In this document: positions 3,720 through 42,187 of the stretch, in pieces
Layout of the letters: every line of letters starts with the position of its first letter
Numbering within the stretch: position 1 is the first letter of the stretch
NCBI GenBank assembly: GCA_913062595.1
Contig: CAJXWT010000009.1
Coordinates: forward strand, 1-43,416
Length of the DNA stretch: 43,416 bases
Reading direction: 5' to 3'
Source of the DNA: an uncultured Fidelibacterota bacterium
GTDB taxonomy: Bacteria > Fidelibacterota > Marinisomatia > Marinisomatales > TCS55
Position numbers and translations under genes: made by a program
The notes under the pieces: model-generated
Databases searched by the model: none
What the model was told of the DNA's origin: nothing
Seen by the model: the letters and a program-made list of their open reading frames with translations, nothing else

Positions 3720-4519
3720 AAAACGTTCTTCGGTTCTTAATCTGTAACGTGTTTCTATTGCATGCCCAGGCAAAGTTGGACAGCTTGGATAGTTTGATCG
3801 AGCTTAATGAAACACTAGTTATTGACACTGCGATAAAACTAGACAGTCTGCAAAATCTTGTTGAAGATTTACAGGAATCTTATGCAAGAGAACAATTTTT
3901 ACTTTTGGAACGTGTGGCTGTTATTCGCATTAACCGGGCTGCGTTTGCTGGTATGTGGATTAATAAACCGCTGATGGGGCAACGAAAGGACATTCCGCAA
4001 GGCGCGGAAGTTATTTTTTACCCCTATTATATTCAGGATTTCATCCGTGTATCTTTTCATGATACGATTGGTTACATGAGTTCAGCATTTTATGATCAGG
4101 TTGGTTTAACTCCGTACTTCCATGAAGCTCGAGAACGCGCCTTGGTTAGAGAAAAGAATGATCTGAACCTCGAGAATGAGAGTGATCGTTTTAAACGTCG
4201 AGCAAAAGAAAGGATACATGAAGCGAAGTATCTTGCTAAAAGTATTGAGGATTTAACTTTTGCCCAGAAAAAAGAAGAATACCGTAAACGGATCCTAATG
4301 GATAAATGGGGGTATGAATTTGGGTTAAAAATTAAGGATGGTATTGTTGATATTGGATTTACTGAAACTATGGTTGAGGATGCCCTAGGCCGTCCCGATA
4401 GTGTTAACCGTACTACTTATTCATATTATGTGAGAGAACAATGGGTTTACAATGAAGGTAATTATCGCTACATTTATCTGGAAGAAGGGATTGTAACGGC
4501 AATACAGACTAAAGGATAA
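3716..4519 (+). CDS. Secreted protein with coiled coil, SH3-like segment and BamE-like C-terminus; function unknown
   Basis: The 267-residue protein has an N-terminal signal peptide, with likely cleavage before Gln in LLHAQAK. A short coiled coil follows (about 21-62, with repeated DSL and NLVEDL heptads), then a compact beta-rich stretch (about 65-130, GMWINKPLMG to SSAFYDQVG) that looks SH3-like. A long Lys/Arg/Glu-rich helical linker comes next. The last 60 residues (FTETMVEDALGRPDSV, then a W-V-Y strand and a final GIVTAIQ) resemble the SmpA/BamE two-helix three-strand fold. No known protein with this domain order comes to mind. It overlaps its neighbours at both ends, so it belongs to a translationally coupled unit. 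Confidence 0.75.
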   Translation: MKNVLRFLICNVFLLHAQAKLDSLDSLIELNETLVIDTAIKLDSLQNLVEDLQESYAREQFLLLERVAVIRINRAAFAGMWINKPLMGQRKDIPQGAEVIFYPYYIQDFIRVSFHDTIGYMSSAFYDQVGLTPYFHEARERALVREKNDLNLENESDRFKRRAKERIHEAKYLAKSIEDLTFAQKKEEYRKRILMDKWGYEFGLKIKDGIVDIGFTETMVEDALGRPDSVNRTTYSYYVREQWVYNEGNYRYIYLEEGIVTAIQTKG

Positions 4520-5112
4520 TGAGTTTGAATAACTTTCATAGAATAATTTCAATTATCTTAATTGCTATTCCATATTTATACGGGCAAGTACAAGATGACA
4601 CTGCAACAAAACCACCGCCTGAAAGTACTTTCGAGACTGCAACTGATGACCAAGATCAGCAGGACTTAGAACGTCAAGTAGTCAACGAGGAATCAATTGT
4701 TTATACCATACCAACTTTTGATAAAATGAGTGGTTTCACCGTTGGGTGGTCCTTTAACCAACCAATTAATTCCGGTGCAAAATATAAACTTGAAAAATAT
4801 GAGCCAATTATAGGTTTGTCTATTACATCACCTATTACAATCAGTGCACGCATGTTCACGGTAGGTTTTGGATTAGGAGTAGAAGCCGGTAATGATAGTT
4901 TCGGTATTTATGGGACTACAAATGTAAAACTGTTTGGTAAATTTTCATTAATGGCAGGACTCGGTTCCATCAATGGCAGTGGTCTTCATTTGGGCGGGGG
5001 ATTTGATATAAATGTACCCAATCTGCCTTTTTCAGTAAGACCATTTGTTCGTGCAAATTCACCGTCCCAGGGATGGGTGCAGGCTGGTATTATTTTTGGT
5101 TATAGATTGTAG
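4519..5112 (+). CDS. Putative outer-membrane beta-barrel-like protein
   Basis: The 197-residue protein overlaps the preceding stop by one base (TAATG). It has a signal peptide ending in LYG before Gln. A Thr/Pro/Asp/Gln-rich, low-complexity segment (about 25-65) precedes a Gly-rich region with alternating hydrophobic residues (GLSITSPITIS, FGLGVEAGN, LMAGLGSINGS, GIIFGYRL) and an aromatic/Leu end. This pattern fits a small outer-membrane barrel of about 8 strands. No specific family or ligand is recognisable. Confidence 0.7.
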   Translation: MSLNNFHRIISIILIAIPYLYGQVQDDTATKPPPESTFETATDDQDQQDLERQVVNEESIVYTIPTFDKMSGFTVGWSFNQPINSGAKYKLEKYEPIIGLSITSPITISARMFTVGFGLGVEAGNDSFGIYGTTNVKLFGKFSLMAGLGSINGSGLHLGGGFDINVPNLPFSVRPFVRANSPSQGWVQAGIIFGYRL

Positions 5113-5135
5113 AAATATATGAGGCATCTGAATAC

Positions 5136-5168
5136 ATGCAGACCAAGAAGATGATTCTATTAAAGTAG
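5136..5168 (+). CDS. Ten-codon ORF, copy A of a sister pair (possible leader peptide MQTKKMILLK)
   Basis: ATG to TAG encodes only MQTKKMILLK. It would be dismissed except that the same ten-codon frame occurs at 41656 as MQTKEMVLLE with a stop at the same codon. The differences include silent Leu changes (CTA/TTG, TTA/CTC). Similarity starts at the ATG and is absent upstream. The stop codon forms the end of the left arm of the hairpin at 5160-5186, just before the GTG start of the next gene. A leader peptide is possible. There is no proof of translation, and the ribosome-binding context (GAGG 12 bases upstream) is poor. Confidence 0.35.
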   Translation: MQTKKMILLK

Positions 5169-5186
5169 GATTTATTACTACTTTAA
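5160..5186 (+). promoter_or_regulatory. 9-bp perfect hairpin immediately upstream of a GTG start
   Basis: TTAAAGTAG (5160-5168) pairs perfectly with CTACTTTAA (5178-5186) around a 9-base loop. The 3' arm ends 3 bases before the GTG at 5190, where a Shine-Dalgarno would normally lie, and the 5' arm contains the stop of the ten-codon ORF. A ribosome on that ORF would open the hairpin. It is not followed by a U tract, so an intrinsic terminator is unlikely. Confidence 0.4.
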
Positions 5187-5189
5187 AAA

Positions 5190-5540
5190 GTGGAAAGTTG
5201 TCCGAATATCGCAGGTAGAGAGATCCGTAGACGTCTAAATATTGGCTATATTGGTTTGGCTCTTACGATCGTTACTATTGCATATATAATTATTGTTAAA
5301 CAGGATCATTTACGGTTTATTGTGTTTTTCCCTGCTATATTAATGACCATATCATTTTTTGAAGCTTGGGATAAGACCTGTATTGTCAATGCTTATTTCG
5401 GGATAAAAAATATGGGTGAAAAAAACCATAGAGAAAGAGATGCTGATTCTTTGAAAGTACAGCGGTTACAATCAGTCAAAATTGTCGTTAAAGCAGTTTT
5501 GAGCGCTGCTATTTTAACAGCAATTATTTATTCAATTTGA
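5190..5540 (+). CDS. Small membrane protein of unknown function with three or four predicted helices
   Basis: The 116-residue protein must start at GTG 5190, because an in-frame TAA lies two codons upstream and the next Met is deep inside. Hydrophobic segments lie at about 18-35, 41-56 and 96-114. Two Cys residues (4 and 64) and an N-terminal Arg-rich stretch (REIRRRLN) are notable. The region between the second and third helices is highly charged (GEKNHRERDADSLK). I do not recognise a family. There is no Shine-Dalgarno; instead the hairpin at 5160-5186 abuts the start. Confidence 0.65.
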   Translation: MESCPNIAGREIRRRLNIGYIGLALTIVTIAYIIIVKQDHLRFIVFFPAILMTISFFEAWDKTCIVNAYFGIKNMGEKNHRERDADSLKVQRLQSVKIVVKAVLSAAILTAIIYSI

Positions 5541-8602: not shown

Positions 8603-11596
8603 TCATATACCACTAGTTTCCTGTTCATTCATTGGATCTAGCTCAGGGACTTTCGGTTTAAGGATGACACCGTTACCTGTTTGCCCATCGATCTTAATAC
8701 GAAGCGGATATTCCAACTCATAACAGGTAGTATACGTTTTTTCTTCTTTAATTATTTGTTCATATAACCAGCTAAAATCAAATACATCAGTATTTGAATT
8801 ATGATCCACAGTGAAATAACCCAGTCGCATACTGGTAACATTTTGAAAGAAATGACTACCAAAAGATGGATCAATTGGAAAATCATTTATTCCTATCTCA
8901 ACTATTGCGCTGGCACCGTTTATCTGTTCCCAATTTACTGGAACTCCCAGCCAGGGATCTGCTGAGCCCCAGCGACCAGGCCCTACAAGTATATAAGGGT
9001 GTTGTTTAATCATTGTTTGGTTGATTGCATGTATTTCTTTGGCGATATCCTTGGTCATTGCCGGTTTGAATCGCTTAGGGTCTACGAAAACGATATGACT
9101 CACATCATCAATAAATCCATCACCTAATGTGACTTTGCTGGTGCATAGAACTTCATCCAGCGATTCTTCTTCCATAGTTATAATTTCTCTCGATCCTCCC
9201 ATAACCATGGGCTTGATTTGTAGCAATGCAAATTCAGGGTTCTTTTTTAGATTATCAAATAAGTTGACGGCGTATTCGATTTCAACTTCACACCCCAAGG
9301 CTTCTTTTCCCATTATTATAAGGTCGTTTAAGATATCTACTAGTGGGAATGTGACCCATTTTAATATTGGTGCAAATGTTATCACCCTGGTTCCATCATA
9401 AGATAAGGAGTCTCTTATAACATTGTCTTCGCTTGATATAATGCTACCAGACCACTTTAGCGAACCATCCTGTTCGGCAATTTCTAGGTTATATGATGAT
9501 AAGTTTTTCTCTTCCCCATTCAATAGTGGATGGGCTTTTGGATTAAGATTCATTGCGTAGAAGGCATTTTGAGAGTTTTCCAATGTCGCCTTAATCGAGT
9601 AATACTGGGGCAATATACCGGGGTATTTTGGTGAGAATCGCAGGGATTTTTCACCATTGGCAATGGTTCTTCCCAATCCAAGTGCTAAATGAGCCACACC
9701 TTCATCGCGCTGCAGGTATGACACTGGGTAAAAATTAAAGCTTTGCGCAGTCCCACTAAAGGTTGGGTAGTATCTGTCATTATAATTCTGACCAACCATC
9801 TCCATTAGTATCACCGCCATTTTTTCTTGTTCAATACGATGCACGGATCCACCTATAAGGGATTTAGGGCCTTGAAAAAACGTGGAAGCATATACGAGCT
9901 TTATAGCAGTGATAATATCAGACAAACGGTCATTCAATTTCTTGCTATTATTCGGCAGCATATAGGTGGCATACATCCCTGAAAGTGGTTGGTACTGGCT
10001 ATCCTCTAGTAGACTCGATGATCGTACCGCCAAGGGATACTTCACTGATTTAACAAATACTTTAAGTGAGTTTCTTAAATCACTACTAAAATTTGAATTA
10101 AGAAATAATTTTGATATTTCTTTGTTTGTTTTTTTTGACAGTGCATCCGTCCATAGATTATTTTCCTTCATGAATTCGTCAAAAGAATTGGTACCGACTA
10201 CGGCAGCATGAGGAATATTAATATCTATTCCATCATAACGATCTCGGAAGTCCGATGAACGAATCATTTTTTGAGCGAAAGCTAGTCCGCGGGCTTTTCC
10301 ACCTAAAGATCCACCTGATATCTGGGTAAAACGCTTCGTATGATCAAATGTATCTCGTTGAATTTCTACAACCTGTCTTGCTTCGCGATTTTTAATTGTA
10401 TTTTCGATCAGATCAACTAAATAGGCCCGATGAACATCTGAGTTTTTAAAATCAGCATGATTCAGAGGCCGCACCTGAGAGGCAAGTCCCAAATATCCGT
10501 GTGCAGCCAACCAATTAGAAAAGTGATTGCTATTTGCATGGTAGAGGAGTGATTCTTCTGGGACAGTTTGGATCGCCTTAATGAGTGCAGGCAAATCAGA
10601 GACTTTGATCAGTTCCTTTCCTTTGGGTGTGCGGAATATGAGATCTCCAAAGCCAAAATTTCTGACTATGAATTCACTGAGTTCTATTAACAAAGTCGGA
10701 GAATCCTTATACAGGAAATGAGCTTGAACCTCTTCAGCTAGTTCAGCATTTTTACTATATTTTGATTGCAGTATAATTGGTATGCTTGGATCAATTGATC
10801 TTGCCCATCGTGCAAATTTTACACCAGCGTTTTTATCTAGTTTGCCGTCTTTTGGGAAACGGATATCAGAAATTATGCCAAGTGTACTCAACCTGAAGCG
10901 CTTAAAATAGCGTTCAGCTTCCTCATATGAAGTAGCTAGAAGTATTTTTGGACGGCCGCGCATATATAATAATCTTTCGTGATCACTGGCACTTTTATCA
11001 ACCATTTCTTTTACCTGGTAGCTGATCTCCTTATAAATCATTGGCAGTATTAGGGAGTAATACCGTGGTGAATCCTCTATTAGAATAATACAGCGTACAT
11101 CTGCTTTTTTGATATCTCTGCGAATATTCATAGCGTCTTCAAACATTTTCACTATTGCTAATAATACATTGGCATTCCCTGACCATATGAATACACGATC
11201 TATAGCGGATTTTTCAAAATCTTCTGGTAATTGCTTTATCTCTGATTCATCAAAGGCTAACAGAATAACCGGTTTTTTTGGATAAATTTCTTTAATCTTC
11301 GAACAGAATAGTACGGGATCCATATCTGCAATGCGCATCATCACAATTATCAAATCAAAGTCTTGGCGGGATAGCATTGTAAGTGCATCCTCAGCAGTAG
11401 AAGCTTGCCAGACTCGTGGCGCATTACTAAAATTCATCCCCATGTATTCATGCAATATCTGTTCAGTCAATCGACCATCCTCTTCAAGGACGAAAGAATC
11501 ATAGGGACTAGCTACAAGGAGGATCTCATGAATATGATGGAACATCAAATCCTGTAATGTCAGTTTGTCTGCTAGTGTGAATTGTACAGATTTCAT
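8603..11596 (-). CDS. Two receiver-like domains fused to PEP synthase/PPDK nucleotide-binding domain
   Basis: The 997-residue protein begins with a degenerate receiver-like domain (about 24-155), in which the expected phospho-acceptor position in FDLIIVMMRI is not Asp. A second receiver (about 168-310) keeps the acidic pair E174-D175, Asp244 in IISDIRFP and Lys297, so it can probably be phosphorylated. From about 428 it has a PPDK/PEP-synthase ATP-grasp: GGSLGGKARGLAFA and LAVRSSSLLEDSQYQPLSGMY (about 523-541). The His-bearing swivel domain and the PEP-binding TIM barrel are absent, so a complete PEP synthase reaction is not possible alone. The ATP-dependent target is unknown. Confidence 0.85.
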   Translation of the reverse strand: MKSVQFTLADKLTLQDLMFHHIHEILLVASPYDSFVLEEDGRLTEQILHEYMGMNFSNAPRVWQASTAEDALTMLSRQDFDLIIVMMRIADMDPVLFCSKIKEIYPKKPVILLAFDESEIKQLPEDFEKSAIDRVFIWSGNANVLLAIVKMFEDAMNIRRDIKKADVRCIILIEDSPRYYSLILPMIYKEISYQVKEMVDKSASDHERLLYMRGRPKILLATSYEEAERYFKRFRLSTLGIISDIRFPKDGKLDKNAGVKFARWARSIDPSIPIILQSKYSKNAELAEEVQAHFLYKDSPTLLIELSEFIVRNFGFGDLIFRTPKGKELIKVSDLPALIKAIQTVPEESLLYHANSNHFSNWLAAHGYLGLASQVRPLNHADFKNSDVHRAYLVDLIENTIKNREARQVVEIQRDTFDHTKRFTQISGGSLGGKARGLAFAQKMIRSSDFRDRYDGIDINIPHAAVVGTNSFDEFMKENNLWTDALSKKTNKEISKLFLNSNFSSDLRNSLKVFVKSVKYPLAVRSSSLLEDSQYQPLSGMYATYMLPNNSKKLNDRLSDIITAIKLVYASTFFQGPKSLIGGSVHRIEQEKMAVILMEMVGQNYNDRYYPTFSGTAQSFNFYPVSYLQRDEGVAHLALGLGRTIANGEKSLRFSPKYPGILPQYYSIKATLENSQNAFYAMNLNPKAHPLLNGEEKNLSSYNLEIAEQDGSLKWSGSIISSEDNVIRDSLSYDGTRVITFAPILKWVTFPLVDILNDLIIMGKEALGCEVEIEYAVNLFDNLKKNPEFALLQIKPMVMGGSREIITMEEESLDEVLCTSKVTLGDGFIDDVSHIVFVDPKRFKPAMTKDIAKEIHAINQTMIKQHPYILVGPGRWGSADPWLGVPVNWEQINGASAIVEIGINDFPIDPSFGSHFFQNVTSMRLGYFTVDHNSNTDVFDFSWLYEQIIKEEKTYTTCYELEYPLRIKIDGQTGNGVILKPKVPELDPMNEQETSGI

Positions 11597-39800: not shown

Positions 39801-40076
39801 ACAGCTCGCTGGGAACCAAAACATATCTATGTATCTGGGCGCGGTCCTCGGAAACTGGATTTTATCAATTTACCCCAAGTCTGCACCATCAAGATCTTTA
39901 CTATGGCTGGGTACCTAGTTGATGTAATAGAGCACAGCAGTGCATATGAGTATGGTACCTATTCATGGGATATGTTATCAAAGGATGGATTGGAAATTGC
40001 CTATGGTCTTTATATCTATCATGTAGATGCGCCAAATGTGGGTGAAAAAATAGGGAAATTTGCGGTAATAAAATGA
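36861..40076 (+). CDS. Large surface protein with FnIII-like region and FlgD/type IX-like C-terminal domain
   Basis: The 1071-residue protein has a signal peptide cut before Gln (LLIGQQPDK). An Asp-rich region (about 300-370: GIDNDEDGMIDE, then GIDNDEDW and GPDADGTEGNG) looks like Ca2+-binding thrombospondin-3-like loops. A fibronectin III-like segment lies at about 475-610 (DRKVTLFWDKLAENSLD to YYYAVVAYDKGYD). The end (VVPNPYVV, CTIKIFTMAGYLVDVIE, YGLYIYHVDAP, IGKFAVIK) has the FlgD-Ig/Por-secretion pattern used by type IX cargo. It lies 6 bases after the receptor gene and overlaps the PorV-like gene (ATGA). The function is unknown. Confidence 0.85.
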   Translation: MRLFIIIFLFSLLIGQQPDKILEGVESRAKSLDVTDRKYGDHNGNRIFNRFYNFGGIGDAGGSLSGVYPYGSGHSYFYEFTPVVAASVIDTNGNRVHIVSDGAVALKDNSPQGYQWGFEPLTGYANPNQEIMAMSDKSYTWPETWPNRESDWDGYWNGQYGKYERADQESYFVMDDYYNDEFSHFPDSADTDAVPKRRSGIGVELEVRIYQWNHPAAEDIIIVTYWITNVGTSRLDSVVFGMYGDADIGSTNGDYSDDDAWFDIENDIVYQWDHDGWSNAGGGFKPVYFGWSFLESPGNPHDGIDNDEDGMIDESQFDGIDNDEDWLAERDDIGSDGLGEYHYGYAGPDADGTEGNGIPDLGEPNFEITDNDESDQIGLTSFYASPYPSIYPSNDEIMWNQLKPGIFDVASQNIDQTFLYGSGYIALDPGEKKKFAVAMVFGNDMDDILRNTVTMQNIYDNDYNFAKPPLKPNLTVIPGDRKVTLFWDKLAENSLDAIYGADFEGYRVYRSTDPGFIDPYIITDAYGNNTFKKPIAQFDLIDSLKGPHPIGFNGIQYDMGSDTGLEHMYVDSNNVYNGMTYYYAVVAYDKGYDLDFYELGFSEQENLLPIAPSECSIIVDLDRKGNVTNLSENAGKVVTNAPVAGYMGPNTSAPGQEFVAHDSGYATGRIEVLTVDPTAVPENATYSLSFERALGSSIIYYSVRDEQLKDEAFVIASGYGSLDRKNIDSTTVDITDESGATTYQLGIDYTMDYANGIIIATEGSALEEMNTYVASYLYYPILNSSSTAGETDNPIFDGMKIYIFNDYIGVNVDSSGWVGVNAPYCYRIFDQRIHPADFEIIWEGDVGDSVTADYSNLPSPFRVRNITENNEVTFRIYDINNNDLWEPEEPILLMPYPGMQTPYMFVQFFPDSVMCPYNEDDVLYDTTATIAKGDRFRITTVRPFTSDDKYHFTTRKSWVDNQLATDELDDIVVVPNPYVVTARWEPKHIYVSGRGPRKLDFINLPQVCTIKIFTMAGYLVDVIEHSSAYEYGTYSWDMLSKDGLEIAYGLYIYHVDAPNVGEKIGKFAVIK

Positions 40077-41095
40077 TCGGCATTAAAAGAACATTAATTA
40101 TTATGGCCTGCTCAGCGTGTCTTTATGGTCAAATAACTGGAAGCGTAAGTAATGTCGGTACAACAGCAGCATCATTTTTGGATATTGGTATTGGAGCAAG
40201 ATCGCTATCGATGGGCGGCGCTTTCGTTGCCCTTGCTGATGACCCGACTGCCCTGTATTGGAATCCAGCAGGTATGGTAAATATTCAGACACCAACAGCG
40301 CATTTTTTTCACTCACCATGGTTGGCTGATATCCGTTTCAATCATAGTGCAGTGGTAGTGCCAATAGATAGGTCTAGTTCATTTGGTTTTTTCATTACAT
40401 CCGTCTCGATGGATGAAATGCAGGTGCGAACAGTAAAAATTCCCCAGGGAACTGGTGAATACTTTTCGGTTAGTAATGTAGCCTTAGCTGGTTCTTACGC
40501 TCGACGACTCACCGATCGCTTTTCGTTCGGTTTTAATATTAAATACATACAAGAAAAGATATGGCATATGAATGCGGGTGGATTGGCCGTTGATTTGGGG
40601 AGTTTATTTGTTACCAAAAACAGCGGTGTTCGTATTGGCATGTCCGTTTCAAATTTCGGTGGAAAATCAGCCATGGAAGGATATGATACTGAAGTGGATT
40701 ATGACGTGGATGAGACCATGTATGGTAACAACGATAAAATCGATGCGCATTTGAACGCGATGAAATGGCCGCTACCATTAGTTTTTCGCGCAGGAGTGAG
40801 CAAGGATTTAATACAATCAGATATATATAAACTCACCCTTGCGGGTGATGCAGTCCATCCAAATAATAACGTTGAGTATCTGAATCTTGGGTTTGAGTAT
40901 ATATTCCGCGATATTCTTGCTCTTCGGGGTGGACAGGCTTTTCTTGGTATGGATGACTCAAAACAAGGTTTGACATTAGGTGTGGGTCTTAATTATCAAA
41001 TACCGAGAGGACCAAGGATTACACTAGATTATGCTTACCGATCCTTTGGTGTTTTTGAAAATATCTCTGGTTATTCTCTAAACCTTATTTTCTAA
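40073..41095 (+). CDS. PorV/PorQ (UPF0164)-family outer-membrane barrel
   Basis: The 340-residue protein has a signal peptide ending in LYG before Gln. The family signature is clear near the N-terminus: FLDIGIGARSLSMGGAFVAL, then ADDPTALYWNPAGM. The rest alternates hydrophobic strands with turns, as in a FadL-like 14-strand barrel, and ends in YSLNLIF. PorV shuttles type IX cargo to the attachment complex in Bacteroidota, and its placement after a CTD-bearing surface protein suits that role. No other type IX component is present in this window. Confidence 0.88.
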   Translation: MIGIKRTLIIMACSACLYGQITGSVSNVGTTAASFLDIGIGARSLSMGGAFVALADDPTALYWNPAGMVNIQTPTAHFFHSPWLADIRFNHSAVVVPIDRSSSFGFFITSVSMDEMQVRTVKIPQGTGEYFSVSNVALAGSYARRLTDRFSFGFNIKYIQEKIWHMNAGGLAVDLGSLFVTKNSGVRIGMSVSNFGGKSAMEGYDTEVDYDVDETMYGNNDKIDAHLNAMKWPLPLVFRAGVSKDLIQSDIYKLTLAGDAVHPNNNVEYLNLGFEYIFRDILALRGGQAFLGMDDSKQGLTLGVGLNYQIPRGPRITLDYAYRSFGVFENISGYSLNLIF

Positions 41096-41103
41096 TTTAA
41101 ATT

Positions 41104-41613
41104 ATGACAGAAAAAAAGAGCATTCTGCTGGTTTCCGCCACTGGGAGGGAAAACTACGAATTAGCCCAGGAACTCAAAGAAATAATTGATAATGCAGCAG
41201 CAGTTTTTGCGACAGTAATTAACCTTGAGTCTTATGATTTGCCACTCTACAGGCCAGGTATTGAGATTAACAATAAAACTGCCCAGAAATTGAGTGCGGA
41301 ATTCGAGAGTACGGACGGATTTGTTTTCTGTGCCCCGGAATATAACGGTGGGGCACCACCTATATTGACCAACGCGATTACATGGGTGTCAATTACAACT
41401 GCAAACTGGCGCGATGGCTGCAATGATAAATTTGCTGTAATTGCAACTAGCAGCGATGGTTCAGGTCAACGTTTTCTTATCTCATTTCGCTCGCAATTAG
41501 AACATATGGGTACATTGGTGTTGCCGAGAACTATTACGGTTACTAAAGGGCAATCTTTGAATAGAGAATCTGCAGAGAGGACATTGCAGAGTTTGGTTCG
41601 CTATATGACCTAG
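41104..41613 (+). CDS. NAD(P)H-dependent FMN reductase family flavoprotein
   Basis: The 169-residue flavodoxin-like protein begins with a beta strand (KSILLVSATGR) whose loop binds the FMN phosphate; the usual GSxR is changed to SATGR. CAPEYNGGAPPILTNAITWVS is the strongest family mark (PEYN-G). It would reduce FMN or quinones with NAD(P)H. The spacing of 8 bases after the PorV-like gene suggests read-through from the envelope operon, although function differs. Confidence 0.85.
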   Translation: MTEKKSILLVSATGRENYELAQELKEIIDNAAAVFATVINLESYDLPLYRPGIEINNKTAQKLSAEFESTDGFVFCAPEYNGGAPPILTNAITWVSITTANWRDGCNDKFAVIATSSDGSGQRFLISFRSQLEHMGTLVLPRTITVTKGQSLNRESAERTLQSLVRYMT

Positions 41614-41655
41614 TAATTATTTGGAATATCCTACCTGATACAAGCTAGAGGTTTT

Positions 41656-41688
41656 ATGCAGACCAAGGAGATGGTTTTGCTCGAATAA
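41656..41688 (+). CDS. Ten-codon ORF, copy B of a sister pair (possible peptide MQTKEMVLLE)
   Basis: ATG to TAA encodes MQTKEMVLLE. AGAGG lies 4 bases ahead of the ATG, so ribosome-binding context is acceptable. Nineteen of the first 21 bases equal the copy at 5136, and the later codons differ mostly in ways that keep Leu-Leu. It is followed 19 bases later by a strong terminator hairpin, and no plus-strand gene lies between. Translation is unproven. Confidence 0.35.
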   Translation: MQTKEMVLLE

Positions 41689-41707
41689 ATTCTAATAATA
41701 AAGTGAT

Positions 41708-41735
41708 AAAAAAGGGGCAATTCAGCCCCTTTTTT
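41708..41735. terminator. Bidirectional intrinsic terminator between FMN reductase and hsp20
   Basis: An 11-bp stem with AAAAAAGGGGC (41708-41718) and its complement GCCCCTTTTTT (41725-41735) closes a 6-base loop. A U tract follows in either direction. It ends the plus-strand envelope operon and the convergent hsp20 transcript. Confidence 0.92.
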
Positions 41736-41752
41736 ATTTACAGCCATTACAA

Positions 41753-42187
41753 TTAACTGATCTTTATTTGACGACCTTCAGGAAGAATTTCCTTGGTCTT
41801 TGGTAAGGTAACCGTTAACACGCCGTTCTTGAATTTTGCGGCAACCTTGTCCTCATTTACGTTATCTGGCAGCCTGAAACTGCGATTAAATGAACCAAGT
41901 TGACGTTCACGGATCCGATAACCATCAGTGGATTTTTCATTATCAATAGCGCGTTCACCTTTAATTGTGATAACGCCATCGTGAATATCTACAGAAACGT
42001 CATTTTTATCTAAACCCGGCATATCTGCGGATAAGAAAAATTCTTTTTCTGTTTCGTTCACATCGACTGCAAGCATCCAGGATTGTCCAGCAGAAAGACG
42101 GGGCCAACCAGGGCTAAACATGCTATCGAAGATCCGATCAAAATCAGTCATTAAACTGCGTGTTGGGTTCCATTTTACTAGTGTCAT
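41753..42187 (-). CDS. Small heat shock protein, Hsp20 family
   Basis: The 144-residue protein has the alpha-crystallin domain (about 38-135): AVDVNETEKEFFLSADMPGL, VSVDIHDGVITIKGERA, RERQLGSFNRSFRLP and KFKNGVLTVTLPK, the last being the canonical GVL motif of this family. An IxI-type tail is present (IKIS). It prevents aggregation of unfolded proteins and acts in large oligomers. AAAGGAG gives a strong Shine-Dalgarno. The upstream region has a near-consensus sigma-54 promoter at 42233-42249 rather than an obvious sigma-32 type. Confidence 0.95.
   Translation of the reverse strand: MTLVKWNPTRSLMTDFDRIFDSMFSPGWPRLSAGQSWMLAVDVNETEKEFFLSADMPGLDKNDVSVDIHDGVITIKGERAIDNEKSTDGYRIRERQLGSFNRSFRLPDNVNEDKVAAKFKNGVLTVTLPKTKEILPEGRQIKIS

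Follow-up and report, generated by a model that had tools for sequence, protein, structure and literature searches.

Two ten-codon open reading frames in a 43,416-nt stretch of DNA from an uncultured Fidelibacterota bacterium (the window, i.e. the whole stretch analysed here) are very probably 3′-terminal remnants of the coding sequence of a type A T9SS sorting domain (CTD). Both copies are homologous to the C-terminal strand of that domain.

Results

The two frames run from ATG to stop on the forward strand. With the family-like residues encoded upstream of the ATG given in parentheses, they read (YEASEY)MQTKKMILLK-TAG (ATG frame 5136–5168; orphan CTD tail 1, 5121–5168) and (YLIQARGF)MQTKEMVLLE-TAA (ATG frame 41656–41688; orphan CTD tail 2, 41632–41688). 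As the initial annotation had reported, they share 19 of their first 21 bases and lie 23 and 42 bases after the preceding ORFs, which end at 5112 and 41613, respectively. That annotation attributed the likeness to selection on a peptide or to a shared RNA element. The neighbouring genes end before the tails and in other frames, and the tail frames are open only from 5106 and 41617; further upstream the frame is broken, and neither copy has a signal peptide.

Tail 1 lies between two forward-strand genes that are conserved side by side in congeners. The upstream gene (4519–5112) encodes a conserved product with an outer-membrane-like ending (GIIFGYRL) and no match in Pfam or NCBIfam, while the downstream gene (5190–5540), which starts with GTG here, encodes a 116-aa conserved protein showing 57–66% identity in four congeners. 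Tail 2 follows a forward-strand gene for an NADPH-dependent FMN reductase (41104–41613; PF03358, E = 1.7e-19). Just 3′ of the tail lies a terminator-like stem (41706–41737, no strand assigned), a hairpin also found in congeners and taken as the ancestral terminator between this gene and the reverse-strand gene for an Hsp20 small heat-shock protein (41753–42187; PF00011, E = 1e-27). Directly 5′ of the FMN reductase gene, positions 40073–41095 encode an outer-membrane protein of the PorV/PorQ family, a T9SS-type component (NF033709, 199 bits).

The genome to which the window belongs (2.37 Mb, 134 contigs) was searched with the degenerate pattern MQTK[KE]M[IV]LL[KE]-stop. Six exact copies and 21 copies with up to three mismatches were found; the reversed pattern, used as a control in the same genome, gave no matches. 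Since copies of the pattern abound against an empty control, the likeness between the two frames is not due to chance, a cause that had been left open at first. Most of the remaining copies form the C-terminus of an ORF hundreds of codons long, the last ∼90 residues of which follow the arrangement YPNPFNP...YDMLGR...AGVYLYQIQAGEYMQTKKMVLLK-stop. Two such ORF ends matched TIGR04183 with 46.5 and 45.6 bits (cut-off 23) and PF18962 with 38 and 33.8 bits (cut-off 27). The genome contains 76 TIGR04183 matches above the curated cut-off and encodes a SprA translocon frame of 2033 aa; in the window, TIGR04183 gave no match at E ≤ 0.1. In intact genes the stretch forms the last β-strand of the CTD, the signal that takes Sec-exported proteins across the outer membrane. 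The genome-wide family that had been envisaged does exist, but it is not new: it corresponds to TIGR04183/PF18962, and numerous genes that carry a Por C-terminal sorting domain have already been reported in SAR406/Marinimicrobia (PMC5596340). The intact copies extend ∼80 codons further 5′ than the decapeptide, and the window copies also resemble the family outside the frame, which the initial annotation had named as grounds for refutation; the idea of a ten-codon unit starting at the ATG was not confirmed.

A tail profile based exclusively on the 26 C-terminal residues of 18 intact domains detected both window copies, one at 5121–5165 (E = 4.8e-6, profile positions 12–26 of 26) and the other at 41632–41682 (E = 2.1e-3, profile positions 9–25 of 26). 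The two copies hold only domain positions 75–92 and 78–92. The initial annotation had seen no similarity upstream of the ATG. The window copies are indeed unlike each other there, but each matches the CTD family in frame, and some four to eight family-like codons are retained 5′ of the ATG. Upstream of the ATG at 41656, 17 of 24 bases are identical to those of an intact domain in register (p ∼1e-4 against random 24-mers of the window); for the ATG at 5136 the figure is 11 of 15 bases (p ∼0.005 against random window pieces). When the 30 bases 5′ of 5136 were aligned locally without an anchor, no significant match resulted; significance was reached only in an alignment anchored at the ATG. Judged from these sequence comparisons, the upstream evidence is weaker at 5136 than at 41656.

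Methionine occupies the first decapeptide position in just five of 30 intact domains, and the ATG is therefore an internal codon of the family rather than a conserved start. The fifth position is Lys in 29 of these domains and Arg in one, and the tenth is Lys in all 30. Copy 1 keeps both Lys residues; copy 2 has lost these diagnostic residues, with Glu at both near-invariant positions. The bias towards silent changes is real (replacement/silent ratio ∼0.09 among intact copies) and reflects purifying selection in the intact full-length genes. Selection on a peptide sequence is thus borne out, but its target is the C-terminal strand of full-length domains, not a free decapeptide or an RNA. A free micropeptide family was ruled out on two grounds, the lack of conservation of the ATG and the continuation of the similarity upstream in intact genes.

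At site 1, the distance between the last codon of the upstream gene and the first codon of the downstream gene is 33–34 nt in congeners G001, G002, G004 and G005, and 80 nt in the window; at site 2 it is 64–78 nt in five congeners and 145 nt in the window. The net gain is therefore ∼47 bp at site 1 and ∼68 bp at site 2, the latter relative to G003, the nearest congener. No tail was present at the orthologous sites of four (site 1) and five (site 2) congeners, and since these sites are empty each tail is a lineage-specific gain. For the same reason, a remnant of an ancestral gene resident at the two sites was ruled out. The piece added at site 2 sits between the FMN reductase stop and the ancestral terminator. 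The site 1 spacer of the congeners, which contains an AAGGAG sequence resembling a ribosome binding site, is unrecognisable 5′ of the GTG-starting gene. A perfect 9-bp inverted repeat (TTAAAGTAG ... CTACTTTAA; 5159–5185) extends across the stop codon of tail 1 and lies just 5′ of this GTG; it is absent from the congeners, which have AAGGAG in its place, and might have arisen by chance (fold z-score −0.85).

Tail 2 is also present in an independent MAG (Candidatus Neomarinimicrobiota; L112) that shares 99.3% identity with the window across 7.3 kb, which makes an assembly artefact unlikely for this tail. The independent MAG is incomplete (1.4 Mb) and has no match to the tail 1 region, so that this argument covers tail 2 only.

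Seven further interior tails lacking the N-terminal half of the domain were found in the genome (C12:5206, C38:14466, C45:15610, C45:8736, C66:9502, C6:23837 and C109:3964); tails cut by contig ends, in C118, C97, C65 and C79, were kept out of the interior count. These other remnants are graded in length, with first positions that range from 45 to 80 of the domain. A reverse search with the first 41 domain columns yielded 75 places below E 0.1. Seven of these had no tail match, and all seven were full-length domains with diverged tails. No 5′ CTD remnant was found in the genome, N-terminal halves being always accompanied by a C-terminal half or located at a contig end. The interior remnants hence comprise nine 3′ ends and zero 5′ ends (two-sided sign test ∼0.004, with small numbers from one genome), although a tail-based search favours the finding of tails.

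Two of these loci show further features. On the reverse strand of C109:2300–4475 (L157, ∼380–560), the 3′ end of a glutaredoxin-like gene runs into an orphan tail, and the stop of this gene (LLGKENTD-stop) now lies within the tail in another frame. On the reverse strand of C45, at ∼8733–8801 (L009/L154), a long repeat-containing ORF continues in frame into a CTD of which just the final 25 residues are present; the domain thus has an internal loss and represents a sorting signal that is either broken or minimal.

Five other orphan tails precede a dispersed intergenic repeat present at roughly 35–40 places (C12, C27, C36, C38, C45 and others; L082–L111), with consensus GCCCCGCCCANTAGCGGGGTTTTTTGTTTATAGACATTTAGGACTGGTGG..GTGTAATATT. 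In this repeat, a hairpin resembling a terminator and a T-run precede a promoter-like TAGACA - 18 - TAATAT arrangement, and an Rfam search of L084 gave no match. It might help those tails to persist. The window contains no copy of it, which ruled it out as a carrier of the two window tails.

Discussion

The CTD tails entered the lineage of this species after its split from the congeners. Most likely, a CTD gene was gained at each site and later deleted down to its last 15–20 codons. No sorting function is expected of the window copies, as no cargo is attached to them, and both are probably non-functional. Several observations fit this history less well. No intermediate with a larger piece is seen at either site, the tail peptide of copy 1 would still be acceptable, with all its diagnostic residues kept, and 5′ remnants are absent from the genome. 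Gain followed by deletion, twice, with the last codons left each time, is not the simplest history either.

An insertion of short patches, in which CTD 3′ ends of some tens of bases were copied straight into intergenic sites that never held full genes, is a less likely alternative. Possible routes include template switching and the use of copied filler DNA during repair, and the tails would be non-functional in this case too. The net gains are small and lie in otherwise conserved spacers, the ancestral sequence returns soon after the tail stop at site 2, and the nine interior orphans consist exclusively of 3′ ends. However, neither a target duplication nor a common border can be defined, the breakpoints vary among orphans, and the numbers are small, come from a single genome and were obtained in a search biased to tails. 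A more specific proposal, that sorting-domain gene ends are copied into intergenic sites of these Marinimicrobia by a 3′-anchored process, appears quite improbable. If true, ready-made secretion tails would be scattered through the genome, from which neighbouring genes could later acquire them.

It is very improbable that the frames are translated mini-genes whose ten-residue products are maintained by selection, for instance as upstream ORFs that regulate the gene that follows. Both frames do have an ATG and a stop, and AGAGG and GAGG sequences lie 4 bases 5′ of the ATG at 41656 and 11 bases 5′ of that at 5136, respectively. However, the family conserves no ATG and its similarity runs on 5′ of it, both sites are empty in congeners, and copy 2 is otherwise found only in the 99.3% identical MAG. 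At 41656, moreover, the next gene is on the opposite strand, which makes an upstream-ORF role impossible.

That the frames share an RNA or DNA element and look like coding sequence by coincidence is hardly credible, for although the similarity is short and dispersed and five other orphan tails precede the terminator-like repeat, that repeat is not in the window, the copies differ overwhelmingly by silent changes in a codon-like manner, and the family occupies the 3′ termini of long, conserved reading frames, which refutes the idea for the family as a whole. Rfam gave no match at either window site, and the fold at site 1 was not unusual (z-score −0.85). The low fold z-score at site 2 was discarded as a sign of an RNA element, its source being the ancestral terminator common to the congeners.

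Read as decayed 3′ remnants, the apparent members of a new micropeptide family become debris from an already known export tag, and they show that short ORFs can owe codon-like conservation to full-length parents. The bias to 3′ remnants may help to study the spread and decay of sorting-domain genes in Marinimicrobia.

The last ten codons of the window copies, plus five to eight upstream codons, correspond to the C-terminal strand of the domain found in ∼75 genes of this genome. Unlike T9SS type A sorting domains, which span ∼70–90 residues and include YPNPFNP and YDxLGR motifs, the copies lack the other 75–85% of the domain, and unlike the genes containing such domains they have no linker, cargo or signal peptide. 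They resemble bacterial small ORFs or leader peptides in having an ATG and a stop ten codons apart, but differ from them in showing no in-place conservation between species and a similarity that exceeds the frame. With bacterial gene remnants (pseudogene debris) they share truncation, a lineage-specific location, a broken frame and the loss of constrained residues; unlike the usual debris of this type, they are very short, and only 3′ ends are represented.
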